From: Pseudooceanicola marinus
Lineage (GTDB): Bacteria > Pseudomonadota > Alphaproteobacteria > Rhodobacterales > Rhodobacteraceae
Assembly: GCF_020177265.1 (NCBI RefSeq)
Contig: NZ_JAIVMC010000011.1
Coordinates: 1-64,000 of the forward strand
DNA length: 64,000 nt
Direction of reading: 5' to 3'
The translations under genes were made by a program, and so were the position numbers. This document shows, piece after piece, positions 463-5,363 of this stretch. The notes under the pieces were generated by a model. It ran no database searches. It worked only from the letters and a program-made list of their open reading frames with translations, and was not told the origin of the DNA. The stretch's first letter is position 1. Every line of letters begins with the position of its first letter.

Positions 463-1269
463 TCAGGGATCGGGCTGCCCCGACACGCTCCGCTCCATCA
501 GCCGCTGAAAGAGAGAGGGAGAAAGGCGGTTCACCCACCAGGCCAGGCGCGCCACGCGCCCCACGGGGATCATCGGCCGCCCCCGGGCCAGACCGCGCAG
601 GATCTCCGCTGCGGCGGCCTCGGGCGTCATGTAGTCCATCCCGTCAGCGGCGGAACCGGGCCGAGCGATGCCGGAGGCCTCGCGCTCGGGCCGACCGATG
701 TTGGTGGCGACGAAGGAGGGCGCGGCGATCTGGACCCTGACCCCGTACGCACGCTCCTCCGAGCGCAGCGACTTGAACGCCCCTTCGAGGGCATGTTTCG
801 ACGCGGCATAGGCGCAGCGGTTCAGCAGCGGGGTAAACCCGGCCACCGAGGAGATCGCCAGGTGGGTCCCCCCGGTGTCGCGCAAGGCCTGGAGGAAGTG
901 GCCCGCCATGGCCGTGGCGGCGAAGTAGTTCACCTCGAAGACCTTTCGGTGCGTCGCCGCGTCCAGCTCCGCGAAGGGGCCAATCTGCGTGATACCGGCA
1001 TTGTAGATGACCAGGTCCGCACGCCCGTGATCGGCCAGCACGCGGGCGCAGGTCCGCGACAGCGCCTCCGGCTCCGTCAGATCGCATGTATAGAGAGAGA
1101 GGCCGGACGCCGGGACGAGGGCCGACACGTTCCGGTCGATCACCGCCACGCGCCAGCCCCGCGCCAGCAGCGCCGCCGCCAAGGCCCGGCCTAATCCCCC
1201 GGCCCCGCCGGAGATGACCGCGACCCGGCCTGCGCCCTCTCTTCTCTCTTCTCTGTCAGGAAAGGTCAT
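463..1269 (-). CDS. Classical short-chain dehydrogenase/reductase
   Basis: A 268-residue cytosolic NAD(P)-dependent oxidoreductase of the classical SDR family. The cofactor-binding glycine motif GGAGGLGRA lies near residue 20, the YNAG strand near 90, the catalytic serine in AISSVAG, and the YAASK active-site pair near 155, so the enzyme should be active. It is the last gene of a four-gene minus-strand operon, 12 bases after the epimerase-like gene. SDRs of this kind oxidise alcohols or reduce ketones; the substrate cannot be read from the sequence, but the linked flavin monooxygenase and BASS transporter suggest breakdown of an imported organic acid or terpenoid/steroid-like compound. Confidence 0.85.
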   Translation of the reverse strand: MTFPDREERREGAGRVAVISGGAGGLGRALAAALLARGWRVAVIDRNVSALVPASGLSLYTCDLTEPEALSRTCARVLADHGRADLVIYNAGITQIGPFAELDAATHRKVFEVNYFAATAMAGHFLQALRDTGGTHLAISSVAGFTPLLNRCAYAASKHALEGAFKSLRSEERAYGVRVQIAAPSFVATNIGRPEREASGIARPGSAADGMDYMTPEAAAAEILRGLARGRPMIPVGRVARLAWWVNRLSPSLFQRLMERSVSGQPDP

Positions 1270-1281
1270 CGGGTGCTCCTT

Positions 1282-2226
1282 CTAAAGGCCCGCCTGGGCG
1301 CACCAGAGATCGAAGACCTCCGCGCTGGTCTTTTCCGGCTGATAGCCGAACTGCGATTTCAACGCGTCATTGGCCAGCACCGGCCGATATTGCAGGAAGC
1401 GGACCTGTTCCGGCCCGTAGCGGGTCAGCCCAAGGGGTTTCGCCACGGCCAGCGCGGCCTTCAGCGCCCAGGCGGGCAGCACCCGCACCGGCTTGCCCAT
1501 GCGAGTCGCCAGATCAGCCACCGACAGGGCGCCATCACCGGCCACGTTGTAGATGCCTGCCGGGCCGTCGGTGGCCGCGCGCTCGATGATACGTGCCAGA
1601 TCGCGGGTCCAGATGAAGACGAAGGGGCTGTCGCAGCCCGCCACCGCCAGCACCCGCGGCTTGCGGAAGAGGGCCGTGATCTGGTTCTCGGTGCCCGCCC
1701 CCAGCACCGTGCCCACGCGCAGCACCACCTGCTCCAGCGCGGGTGCGGCGCGGCGCGCCTCGGCCAGCATCTCCTCCACCTGCCGCTTGTGATCGGCATA
1801 GGCGAACTCGGCATTGCCGCGCAGCGGATCGCTTTCGCGCAGCGGGACCGGGTTGTCGGGATGATAGCCGTAGGCCGCCCCAGAGGAGGTGACGACCAGC
1901 CGCCGCACCCCGTTGGCGATGCAGGCGTCGATCACATGGCGCGTGCCGGTGACGTCGACGCGATAGGCCAGGTCGCGCCCCTGCTCCGGCGCCGGCGTGA
2001 CGATCGAGGCAAGGTGCACCACTACCTCAGGCTGCACCGCCGTGATGACCCGCATGGGATCGTCCCCCGTGACGTCGAGGGTCTCGAACCGCACCTCGGG
2101 CGGAAGATCGGCGGGACGATGCAGATCGCTTGCCACGACCTCCACCTCCCCGCCGTGCTCCGCGAGTGTAAGGGTCAGGGCGCGGCCGATCATGCCAGCC
2201 GCCCCGGTGATCAGAATACGGGTCAT
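1282..2226 (-). CDS. NAD-dependent epimerase/dehydratase (extended SDR)
   Basis: A 314-residue extended SDR with the Rossmann motif TGAAGMIG at the N-terminus, a conserved SSGAAYG segment, and YADHK as the Tyr-Lys active-site pair. The family includes sugar-nucleotide epimerases and 3-beta-hydroxysteroid dehydrogenase-like enzymes; no sugar-nucleotide genes are nearby, so an alcohol dehydrogenase role in the linked pathway is at least as likely. Its start overlaps the stop of the BASS transporter by four bases (ATGA), showing translational coupling within the operon. Confidence 0.85.
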   Translation of the reverse strand: MTRILITGAAGMIGRALTLTLAEHGGEVEVVASDLHRPADLPPEVRFETLDVTGDDPMRVITAVQPEVVVHLASIVTPAPEQGRDLAYRVDVTGTRHVIDACIANGVRRLVVTSSGAAYGYHPDNPVPLRESDPLRGNAEFAYADHKRQVEEMLAEARRAAPALEQVVLRVGTVLGAGTENQITALFRKPRVLAVAGCDSPFVFIWTRDLARIIERAATDGPAGIYNVAGDGALSVADLATRMGKPVRVLPAWALKAALAVAKPLGLTRYGPEQVRFLQYRPVLANDALKSQFGYQPEKTSAEVFDLWCAQAGL

Positions 2227-3119
2227 CGGGCCGCCTCCGTCCGGCGCCAGAGCTGCGACAGGGCGAAGCCCGAAACCGCATGCCAGATGCCCCAGAAAGC
2301 GGCGACCACGGCCATGCCACCAAGCCCGTGGAAGAAGCCGAAGATCAGCACCAGGCCCAGGCCGGAATTCTGGATCCCCGTCTCGATTTTCACCGCGCGG
2401 GTGTTGAAGGCCGAGAGCCTAGCGGCGCGGGCAGTGCCGAAGCCACCCAGAAGGGCCAGCGCGTTGTGGGCGATGACCAACCCGGCAATGCCTCCGGCGA
2501 ATTGCAGGAAGTAGCCCCAGTTCGACGCCAGCGCCGCCAGCACGAAGGCCACGAAGATCCCCATCGAGATCCATTGCAGCGGCCCGCGCATCCGCGCCGT
2601 GATGTCGGGGCGGCGTGTGTTCAGCGTCACGCCCAGCACCAGCGGCAGCACCAGCATCAGCCCCACGGTGATCGCCACCGACAGAGGGTCGATATGCGTC
2701 TCGCGCAGGATCTGCCGCGAGGGTTCGTACAGCGATCCCCAGAAGGCGATGTTCGTGGGCGTCAGCAGGATCGCCCCCACCGTCGCCAGCCCGGTCATCG
2801 ACACCGACAGCGCCGCATTGCCCCCGGCTCGCTGGGTAAAGAAGTTGGAGATATTGCCCCCCGGGCAGGCCGCCACCAGGATCAGGCCAAGGGCGACCGA
2901 GGCCTGCGGCTGCGTCACCCAGACCAGGCCGAAGGTCAGCGCGGGCAGCACGGCAAACTGTGCCAGGAACCCGGCGATCAGGGGTTTCGGCCGCCGCAGC
3001 AGCTCCAGGAAGTTGGCGGGCGTCAGGTCGATGGCGACCGAGAACATGACCACGGCAAGGATCGAATTCAGCAACCGCAGCGAGGCGGGGCTGAAGTGCA
3101 GCATGACCTCATCCATCAC
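2223..3119 (-). CDS. Bile acid:sodium symporter (BASS) family transporter
   Basis: A 298-residue inner-membrane protein with about nine to ten hydrophobic segments. The stretch LVAACPGGNISNFFT and the following threonine/asparagine-rich region match the discontinuous core helices that bind sodium and substrate in BASS transporters. Known members move bile acids, pantoate, pyruvate and other organic anions with sodium. It overlaps both neighbours by four bases (ATGA at each end), so it is firmly part of the monooxygenase operon and probably imports the compound that the operon's enzymes act on. The substrate is unknown. Confidence 0.85.
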   Translation of the reverse strand: MMDEVMLHFSPASLRLLNSILAVVMFSVAIDLTPANFLELLRRPKPLIAGFLAQFAVLPALTFGLVWVTQPQASVALGLILVAACPGGNISNFFTQRAGGNAALSVSMTGLATVGAILLTPTNIAFWGSLYEPSRQILRETHIDPLSVAITVGLMLVLPLVLGVTLNTRRPDITARMRGPLQWISMGIFVAFVLAALASNWGYFLQFAGGIAGLVIAHNALALLGGFGTARAARLSAFNTRAVKIETGIQNSGLGLVLIFGFFHGLGGMAVVAAFWGIWHAVSGFALSQLWRRTEAAR

Positions 3120-4435
3120 GTTGCCTCCGCGCCCGACAGGCGACGAATCCAGTCGGTCACCGCCTTCCGGTAGGTCGCCTTGTCCACGTAGTAGGCCATC
3201 CGCGCCAGTTTCAGGTAGGCCATGCCGCCCGTGGCCCGATCGAACCCGGCCGCCTTCTTCTGGTGCAGCACCTCGGCGGCAGGATTGCCGCTCCGCCGCC
3301 CGGCGATGTAGCGCGCCACCATCTCGGCCTGTTCATGGCGACCTTGCCAGCCCAGGCCCGAGGCCTCGACCATGCCCAGCACGAACAGATCGTCACGCGT
3401 GGGATGCATGGCATTCAGATAGAGGTGTGGCGCATCCCCCTGCCAGTTCAGCAGTTCTTTCGCGATGAAGGGATAGTGCAGCTTGTAGCCGGTGGCGGCC
3501 AGGATCATGTCGTAGTCGGCCCGGGTGCCATCCTTGAAATGCACCGTCTTGCCCGACAGGTGGTCGATGTCCGGCCGGATCGTCAGGTCCCCGTGCCCCG
3601 CGTGGAACAGCACCAGCGAGTTCACCACCGGGTGGGATTCGTAAAGCTTGTAGTCGGGCTTGGGGAAACCGTACTTCGCCGGGTCCCCAGTGAACCACTT
3701 CAGGATCAGCCCGTCGATCCGTCGCTTCAGCCACATCGGCAGCTTGATCGCGCCGCCCAGTGTATCCGCCGGCCGGCCGAAGACGTATTTCGGAACGAAG
3801 TAGTAGCCGCGGCGCATCGACAGGTCACAGCTGACCCCATGGTGGATCGCATCGACCGCGATGTCGCAGCCGGAATTGCCGGCCCCGACCACCAGCACCC
3901 GCTTGCCATCGAACTGGCGCGGGTCGCGGTACTGGCTGGCGTGGATCAGCTCTCCCTCGAACTGCCCCCTGAAGCTCGGCATGTTCGGCTCGGACAGGGT
4001 GCCATTGGCGATCAGCACCCCGGCAAAAACCGCCTCGTGATCGCCCTCCGCATCAGTCCAGGCCACGCGCCAGCCCGCACCGTCCTCGCCCAGGGGGTCC
4101 ACCCGCGTCACCTCGGCGCCGAAGGTGTAGTGCCGGCGCAGATCGTAATGATCGGCGAAATCGCGGAAGTAGCGCGCCATCTCGCGGTGCGACGGATACT
4201 CGGCCACCTCTTCGCGCATCGGGAAATCGGTGAACTCCGTCATCCGCTTGGACGAGATCAGATGCGCCGTCTCATACATGGTCGATTGTGGCGCCTCGAT
4301 ATCCCACAGCCCGCCCACGTCCGAGTGCAGCTCGAAACCGTGAAAGGCGACGCCCTGCTCGCCCAAAGTCTTGGCGGCTGCCAGGCCCATGGGGCCCGCC
4401 CCGATCAGGGCGAATTTCCCTGTCGTGTCCTGCAT
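3116..4435 (-). CDS. Flavin-containing monooxygenase (class B, FMO/BVMO type)
   Basis: A 439-residue FAD and NADPH enzyme. It shows the FAD motif GAGPMG (residues 12-17), the FMO fingerprint FxGxxxHxxxY (F159, G161, H165, Y169) and the NADPH motif GAGNSG (184-189). Such enzymes insert one oxygen atom into N, S or carbonyl substrates. I chose the ATG at 4435 because GGGAGGAA sits just before it; the reading frame runs further but would cross the palindromic operator. It is the first gene of the four-gene operon and faces the TetR gene. Confidence 0.88.
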   Translation of the reverse strand: MQDTTGKFALIGAGPMGLAAAKTLGEQGVAFHGFELHSDVGGLWDIEAPQSTMYETAHLISSKRMTEFTDFPMREEVAEYPSHREMARYFRDFADHYDLRRHYTFGAEVTRVDPLGEDGAGWRVAWTDAEGDHEAVFAGVLIANGTLSEPNMPSFRGQFEGELIHASQYRDPRQFDGKRVLVVGAGNSGCDIAVDAIHHGVSCDLSMRRGYYFVPKYVFGRPADTLGGAIKLPMWLKRRIDGLILKWFTGDPAKYGFPKPDYKLYESHPVVNSLVLFHAGHGDLTIRPDIDHLSGKTVHFKDGTRADYDMILAATGYKLHYPFIAKELLNWQGDAPHLYLNAMHPTRDDLFVLGMVEASGLGWQGRHEQAEMVARYIAGRRSGNPAAEVLHQKKAAGFDRATGGMAYLKLARMAYYVDKATYRKAVTDWIRRLSGAEAT

Positions 4436-4476
4436 GGTATTCCTCCCTCGCACCCCTCCCGGTGCCGAGGCTAAAA

Positions 4477-4490
4477 TGAACGTACGTTCA
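4477..4490. promoter_or_regulatory. Palindromic operator, likely for the divergent TetR regulator
   Basis: TGAACGTACGTTCA is a perfect 14-base palindrome in the 74-base gap between the monooxygenase start (4435) and the TetR start (4510). Size, symmetry and position are typical of TetR-family operators that control both divergent transcripts. Direct binding is inferred. Confidence 0.75.
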
Positions 4491-4509
4491 ACATAAGGCA
4501 AGGAAATTC

Positions 4510-5178
4510 ATGTCGCCGGAAAACACCAATAAGAAACAACGGCAAAGGGCACCCCAGAAGCGTGCCGTGGAAAGCCGGCAAAAGATCCTGGATGCGGCGG
4601 AGCGAGTCTTCGCCCAGGGGGGATTCGACGGCGCCAAAGTGCGTGACATCGCCGCCGAAGCCGGCGTGCCCGTGGGGCTGGTGCATCACCATGGCGGCGG
4701 CAAGGAGGCGCTGTTCAAGGAGGTGCTCACGCGCCGGGCCGAAATCCTGTCCGCCCAGCGGATCGAGGCGCTGGATGCCGCCCGTGCGGAGGGGCCCTTG
4801 ACGCTGGACCAGGTGCTGCGCGCCTTCACCACGCCCTACTTCGAACTGGCCTACAACGGCGGCCCGCAATGGCTGGCCTATGCGCGGCTGGTGGCGATCA
4901 TCTCGGCCGATGAGAAGCTGACCGAAGTCTCCGCCACCCTTTTCGATCCGACGGCAAAAGTCTTCATTCAGGAACTGGAGCACCTCTATCCGAACGCCCC
5001 GACAGCCGTCGTGGCGGAGTGTTTCGTCTACATGGTGTCCTGCATGCTGGCCCTTGTCACCGCGCGCTTCCGCATCGCGTCCCTCAGCGGTGGCCGCGAG
5101 AGTGGCGAGATGGATGGCCTGCTGACCTTCTGCCGCGCGGGCTTCGAGGCGCGGCTGGCCGAGGCGGGCAAAGCCTGA
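4510..5178 (+). CDS. TetR/AcrR family transcriptional regulator
   Basis: A 222-residue regulator. The N-terminal 60 residues after a basic tail form the TetR helix-turn-helix (ILDAAERVFAQGGFDGAKVRDIAAEAGV), and the recognition helix region reads VGLVHHHGGGKEALF where most relatives have YYHFGSKEALF. The C-terminal ligand domain resembles no specific subfamily that I can name. It is transcribed divergently from the monooxygenase operon, with AAGGA ahead of its ATG and a 14-base palindrome between the two, so it probably represses the operon and itself until the operon's substrate binds. Confidence 0.9.
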   Translation: MSPENTNKKQRQRAPQKRAVESRQKILDAAERVFAQGGFDGAKVRDIAAEAGVPVGLVHHHGGGKEALFKEVLTRRAEILSAQRIEALDAARAEGPLTLDQVLRAFTTPYFELAYNGGPQWLAYARLVAIISADEKLTEVSATLFDPTAKVFIQELEHLYPNAPTAVVAECFVYMVSCMLALVTARFRIASLSGGRESGEMDGLLTFCRAGFEARLAEAGKA

Positions 5179-5286: not shown

Positions 5287-5363
5287 TGGTCGGAGTGGCG
5301 AGATTCGAACTCACGACCCCTGCCTCCCGAAGACAGTGCTCTACCAGGCTGAGCTACACTCCG
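5287..5363 (-). tRNA. tRNA-Pro (anticodon CGG)
   Basis: The minus strand folds as a complete cloverleaf of 77 bases including an encoded CCA (5287-5289). The acceptor stem is CGGAGTG with CACTCCG, the D-arm is GCTCAGCCTGGTAGAGC, the anticodon stem CTGTC/GGCAG closes the loop TTCGGGA, and the T-arm contains GTTCGAATC. Anticodon CGG reads CCG, a frequent proline codon in this GC-rich genome. Confidence 0.97.

Follow-up and report, generated by a model that had tools for sequence, protein, structure and literature searches.

A 64,000-nucleotide stretch of the Pseudooceanicola marinus contig NZ_JAIVMC010000011.1, beginning at contig base 1 and hereafter termed the window, carries close to its start five genes that are well supported as a real, well-conserved and, by prediction, co-transcribed unit, in which a TetR-family regulator gene faces a run of four genes encoding a class B flavin monooxygenase (FMO), a BASS-family transporter and two short-chain dehydrogenases/reductases (SDRs). 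We favour, with moderate confidence, a function for this unit in the substrate-induced, Na+-driven uptake and subsequent oxidation of a small organic anion. The operon is of a familiar kind and, as far as these searches go, undescribed: no published account of the gene set was found in the open-licence literature, represented mostly by titles and the opening parts of abstracts, and a first-pass annotation made from the DNA alone had likewise known of no described pathway with exactly this set.

A conserved five-gene unit

The TetR-family repressor gene (4510..5178, plus strand; 222 amino acids; Pfam TetR_N and TetR_C_30) diverges from four open reading frames that run on the minus strand from 4435 to 463. 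These encode the FMO-type class B flavin monooxygenase (3116..4435; 439 amino acids; Pfam FMO-like, with the fingerprint and structure matches described below), the BASS-family Na+/organic-anion transporter (2223..3119; 298 amino acids from a GTG start, with the ATG at 3116 as an alternative; Pfam SBF), an extended SDR of the epimerase or 3-beta-HSD type (1282..2226; 314 amino acids; Pfam Epimerase/3Beta_HSD) and a classical SDR (463..1269; 268 amino acids; Pfam adh_short). Reading-frame coordinates and Pfam matches agree with the gene set given in the first-pass annotation, which had further described the junctions as ATGA twice followed by 12 bases; the BASS/extended SDR junction is indeed ATGA and 12 bases do separate the two SDR genes, but the FMO/BASS junction reads GTGATGG, i.e. 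either a GTGA overlap of four bases or a TGATG overlap of one.

Conservation was counted over the best 80 of 392 loci obtained by scanning genome contigs with the BASS protein, comprising 66 with all five genes, two (L077 and L078) in which the contig ends inside the FMO gene, and 12 with the transporter only (the retrieved sequence giving no FMO match at E 1e-10). Gene order and strands are identical in all 66 complete loci, so that the earlier proposal of a single unit is not refuted by an order kept in no relative. Overlaps of neighbouring genes recur as well: at the FMO-BASS junction the nearest in-frame start overlaps the preceding stop by four bases in 58 of the 66 and by one base in seven more, a four-base start/stop overlap joins BASS to the extended SDR in 66/66, and the two SDR genes overlap by four bases in 65/66, the exception resembling the window in its 12-base gap. 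When all open reading frames of at least 110 amino acids were clustered across 68 loci, the five operon proteins recurred in 66-68 of them, whereas no cluster outside the operon was present in more than 23, the other large clusters overlapping the operon itself. Distances were also compared for each of the ten protein pairs, and every pair is correlated (r 0.50-0.78, with 0/999 permutations as high in each case). The closest named relative among the matches listed is P. marinus LMG 23705 (L032), with a BASS protein 97% identical. Gene order, overlaps and co-variation, together with the operator described next, lend good support to the single TetR-controlled, co-transcribed uptake-and-oxidation unit that had been proposed.

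Operator, promoters and regulator

Between the divergent genes lies TGAACGTACGTTCA (4477..4490), a perfect 14-bp palindrome, just where the first-pass annotation had placed an operator, and its sole exact copy in the genome (28 contigs, 4.55 Mb). It is the core of a conserved element, TTGAAC-N4-GTTCAA, that is present in the TetR-FMO gap of 66/66 loci with at most two of 12 positions mismatched (36 perfect, 17 with one mismatch and 13 with two), compared with 10 of 1320 base-shuffled gaps reaching two mismatches and none of 66 same-length stretches within the BASS gene. It is the two half-sites that are conserved: of the loci searched for the exact 14-mer, L032 alone has kept it.

Conservation also suggests how the element may act. 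On the minus strand a predicted -35 box, TTGCCT (4496..4501; the same hexamer in 47/66 loci), is followed at 17 bp by a predicted -10-like box, CATTTT (4473..4478; a weak consensus match, mostly CAAnnT in relatives), and across relatives the operator sits between these two boxes of the operon promoter. On the opposite strand a half-site and CAAGAT are predicted to form an overlapping tetR promoter, whose -10-like box reads CAAGGA in the window (4499..4504, plus strand; CAAGAT in 35/66, and assigned by conservation) and ends five bases before the tetR ATG. In 49/66 loci only 4-7 bases separate the predicted -10 box from the in-frame tetR start that comes first (4499-4510 in the window), and the tetR message is therefore probably leaderless; ahead of its FMO start the window has GGGAGG.

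A TetR_N domain and a palindrome in the shared promoter region are what a TetR repressor with a divergent operator would be expected to show. TetR bound to the palindrome would probably act by occlusion, blocking the FMO promoter between its -35 and -10 boxes, and probably also represses its own gene, because the divergent tetR promoter overlaps the same operator; an imported small molecule, either the substrate or an early product, would release it. The closest solved sequence, that of the TetR-type regulator NicR (5fhp; E 6.3e-19), is distant and its effector is not transferable. The conserved operator could readily be used to search for the inducer.

Distribution among bacteria

Of the 198 genomes sampled from the family, 21, the window's own among them, carry an FMO at 73% identity or more, the next best match being 43% identical; one of the 21 (G096) has an in-frame stop in the FMO gene. 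BASS and the extended SDR adjoin the FMO in all 20 other carriers and TetR in 19 of them, the flanks being short and the classical SDR lying beyond them. Across the class (385 genomes) BASS was matched at E 1e-60 or better in 11, again including our own, and the ten others comprise six with FMO and both SDRs adjoining, three with FMO and the extended SDR only, and one without FMO. Genera with the full five-gene unit include Ruegeria, Shimia, Phaeobacter, Thioclava, Hoeflea and Sneathiella, and some of the organisms used as laboratory models belong to these genera.

The sample of the phylum (398 genomes) contained an FMO at E 1e-100 or better in 13, the window's genome among them, with BASS adjoining in 10 of the 12 others. 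Eight of these 12 loci lie outside the class, probably in Gammaproteobacteria, with FMO identities of 56-61%; BASS (41-47% identity) is present in 7/8, the classical SDR in 7/8, the extended SDR in 3/8 and a match to the window TetR in none. Regulator genes of AraC type stand near the FMO-BASS core in L135, L137, L138, L139 and L142 and one of IclR type in L136, no regulator being identified nearby in L140 and L141, a pattern that we read as regulator replacement. Since FMO and BASS persist together outside the class with other regulators, the pairing of enzyme and transporter either predates each single regulator or moves more readily than it does. It is tempting to go further and to suppose, tentatively and in the knowledge that this could well prove wrong, a dedicated pathway, spread by horizontal transfer, for some common metabolite of the sea whose consumption by such a route is not yet known, in which a Na+-coupled importer, an N- or S-oxygenating (or YUCCA-like decarboxylating) FMO and dehydrogenases are reused under TetR, AraC and IclR regulators across Pseudomonadota. 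The interest of the operon lies in its commonness among marine bacteria and in the directness with which its substrate could be found: if its substrate is a plentiful product of algae, a mutant in this single transporter could expose a step so far missing from the marine flow of carbon, nitrogen or sulfur.

Two variants were seen in passing. At L150:5219-11294 BASS, both SDR types, an MFS transporter and an SGL/Vgb-lyase-like protein form one run without FMO, adjoining a GntR/FCD gene, a related arrangement in which the catalytic step differs. At L139:10405-11145 and L141:10829-11635 a TauE/SafE-type transporter gene directly follows the SDR gene in the same direction, which may point to a substrate that contains sulfur, although two loci are too few to use.

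Transporter and dehydrogenases

The BASS protein matches the SBF domain at 118 bits (cut-off 24.3) and the ASBT-NM structure 3zux at 120 bits, and retains the Na+-site residues in the alignment; in the ASBT numbering of Na+ ligands, Q54, S91, S105, T109 and E246 are invariant in 28 aligned sequences and N92 is nearly so. The patterns SNF.T and IE.G.QNSG are found in 66/66 and 64/66 loci, respectively. Whilst ASBT-NM and the ketopantoate/pantoate transporter PanS belong to the same family, the operon protein stays below the curated cut-offs of both TIGR00841 (168.7 bits; cut-off 326.3) and the NCBIfam model for PanS (E 3.6e-31, 108.9 bits; cut-off 400). It would, on this evidence, be a Na+-coupled importer of a small organic anion.

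The direction of transport bears on a different reading, in which the operon serves defence by inactivating a toxic or signalling compound of algae or competitors, TetR sensing that compound and the products not being used as food. TetR control and FMO chemistry are both common in detoxification, and the unit is patchy within the family, as the 21 carriers among 198 genomes indicate; but a transporter whose family consists of importers, and whose Na+ sites are intact, would be odd in such a role, and we regard a defensive function as improbable.

Both SDRs carry the nucleotide-binding pattern and YxxxK in 66/66 loci by pattern search, and neither reaches a curated family cut-off, the extended SDR matching the 3Beta_HSD Pfam model at 63 bits. 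The structural model of the extended SDR (mean predicted confidence, pLDDT, 89.9) resembles mostly sugar-nucleotide epimerases and dehydratases, with 50 matches lying within two Z units (28.9-27.0); these name no substrate, and the absence of a 3-beta-HSD structure from those 50 proves nothing. The two enzymes may oxidise or reduce hydroxyl or keto groups either before or after the FMO step.

The transporter also occurs alone. In 10 of the 12 transporter-only loci (L039, L052, L054, L057, L064, L072, L084, L088, L103 and L110) a BASS relative 69-73% identical is divergent to a conserved protein, so that this transporter clade has another conserved gene neighbourhood besides the operon; two of these proteins, when tested, gave weak matches to the acyltransferase model (27.9 and 26.0 bits) that named no substrate.

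Monooxygenase chemistry

The FMO fingerprint FxGxxxHxxx[YF] lies between two Rossmann motifs in 65/66 loci, and in an alignment of 34 sequences F159, G161 and H165 are invariant and Y169 is nearly so. The GxGxxG motif for FAD is present in 66/66 and one strict NADPH-motif pattern in 46/66, G184 and G186 of the latter being invariant in the alignment. By contrast the type I Baeyer-Villiger fingerprint, FxGxxxHxxxW, is found in 0/66 (fingerprint definitions as given in PMC7570161 and PMC10682829). The best match by both sequence and structure is the flavin-dependent monooxygenase DiatB (PDB 8z12-8z17; Z 35.8-38.0), which is similar in length and fold (187 bits by sequence; Z 37.9 over 408 residues by structure), but only about 30% identical (30% over those residues). 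It is followed by a pyrrolizidine alkaloid N-oxygenase (32.5), ancestral mammalian FMOs (30.4-32.0), an S-allyl-cysteine S-oxygenase (29.1) and other plant and bacterial S- or N-oxygenases, whereas cyclohexanone monooxygenases, i.e. Baeyer-Villiger enzymes, reach only Z 25.1 and below, at 4.2-4.4 A. Most of the nearest solved structures are accordingly N- or S-oxygenases or mammalian FMOs, and oxygenation of an N or S atom of the imported anion is most likely the step performed by this FMO-type enzyme, attack at a carbonyl carbon being less likely. The first-pass suggestion of a carboxylated ketone, terpenoid or steroid as substrate is weakened by the same fingerprints and structure matches.

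Several observations weigh against uptake linked to N- or S-oxygenation by a TetR-controlled unit. The correlation of protein distances partly reflects species history besides common inheritance; the -10 boxes are weak, and a generic sigma-70 scan listed none of these promoters, which are read from conservation. Five of the eight loci outside the class lack the extended SDR and one lacks both BASS and SDR, so that not every part is always needed, and Q250 of the Na+ site is replaced in 3/28 sequences (L135, L136 and L138). Confidence in the FMO model is only moderate (pLDDT 73.6, the weakest stretches including 209-234, 260-271 and 398-417), and among its structural matches are ancestral FMO5 (Z 32.0) and the polyketide synthase oxygenase domain LbmA (Z 30.2), both capable of Baeyer-Villiger chemistry. 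Finally, type II FMOs share the FMO fingerprint and include Baeyer-Villiger catalysts, according to PMC10028610, and the fingerprint therefore makes ketone chemistry less likely only.

These last points favour the route that the first-pass annotation had in mind, in which an imported carboxylated alcohol is converted to a ketone by an SDR and then to an ester or lactone by the FMO, a scheme into which an SDR beside a class B monooxygenase fits and to which the 3Beta_HSD match of the extended SDR would be suited. Set against it are the missing Baeyer-Villiger fingerprint and the rank of cyclohexanone-type enzymes under N/S-oxygenases, the absence of a hydrolase gene from the unit in the 66 loci, and the failure of reading-frame clustering, in which the flanking genes were not individually annotated, to reveal any extra gene conserved beside it. 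A steroid-ring marker, KshA_C, is also not enriched: comparing the 21 carriers of the family sample with 21 non-carriers chosen from it (16 with no FMO match at E 0.001 and five with weak matches only), it was matched in 4/21 (best 27.5 bits) and 3/21 (best 31.6 bits), respectively, all of these matches being weak and obtained with no positive control. Steroid catabolism is thus not favoured, and we consider the Baeyer-Villiger route as a whole unlikely.

With no hydrolase in it, the unit is better suited to N- or S-oxygenation, or to oxidative decarboxylation, than to making an ester or lactone, although genes elsewhere could fill in. In the decarboxylating scheme BASS would import a 2-hydroxy or 2-oxo acid, an SDR would produce the 2-oxo acid, and the FMO would remove CO2 as plant YUCCA enzymes do; other BASS proteins transport 2-oxo acids, and the PanS model matches the operon transporter, though under its cut-off. 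Neither CoA ligase nor hydrolase would be needed, and YUCCA shares the fingerprint FxGxxxHxxx[YF][KR] (PMC7570161). The likeness to YUCCA is, however, one of fingerprint, and with neither SDR at a curated family cut-off we think this scheme a doubtful alternative to N- or S-oxygenation.

Relation to known systems

The mymA operon of Mycobacterium tuberculosis likewise combines a class B monooxygenase with an SDR, under the AraC-type regulator VirS, and is not known to include BASS or TetR; some versions of the FMO-BASS core outside the class also stand near AraC-type genes. MymA is called a Baeyer-Villiger enzyme in PMC13234193. Type II FMOs such as JsFMO and RHA1 FMO-E/F/G have the FxGxxxHxxx[YF] fingerprint in common with the operon FMO, the stricter form ending in [KR][PD] being found in only 8/66; the excerpts available mention no transporter partner for them. 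A term search of PMC10130141, on transporter mutants of R. pomeroyi, returned no bile, BASS, sodium, symporter or monooxygenase.

Flanking sequence

As the window opens at contig base 1, only 462 bases are visible past the classical SDR gene. They include a 9-bp inverted repeat near 411-440, yet folding there is no better than in shuffled sequences (z -0.11), and a generic terminator scan found three candidates against 4.1 expected, i.e. no excess. A tRNA-Pro (CGG) gene at 5287-5363, the only tRNA found in the window, closely follows the downstream end of tetR and is encoded on the opposite strand.

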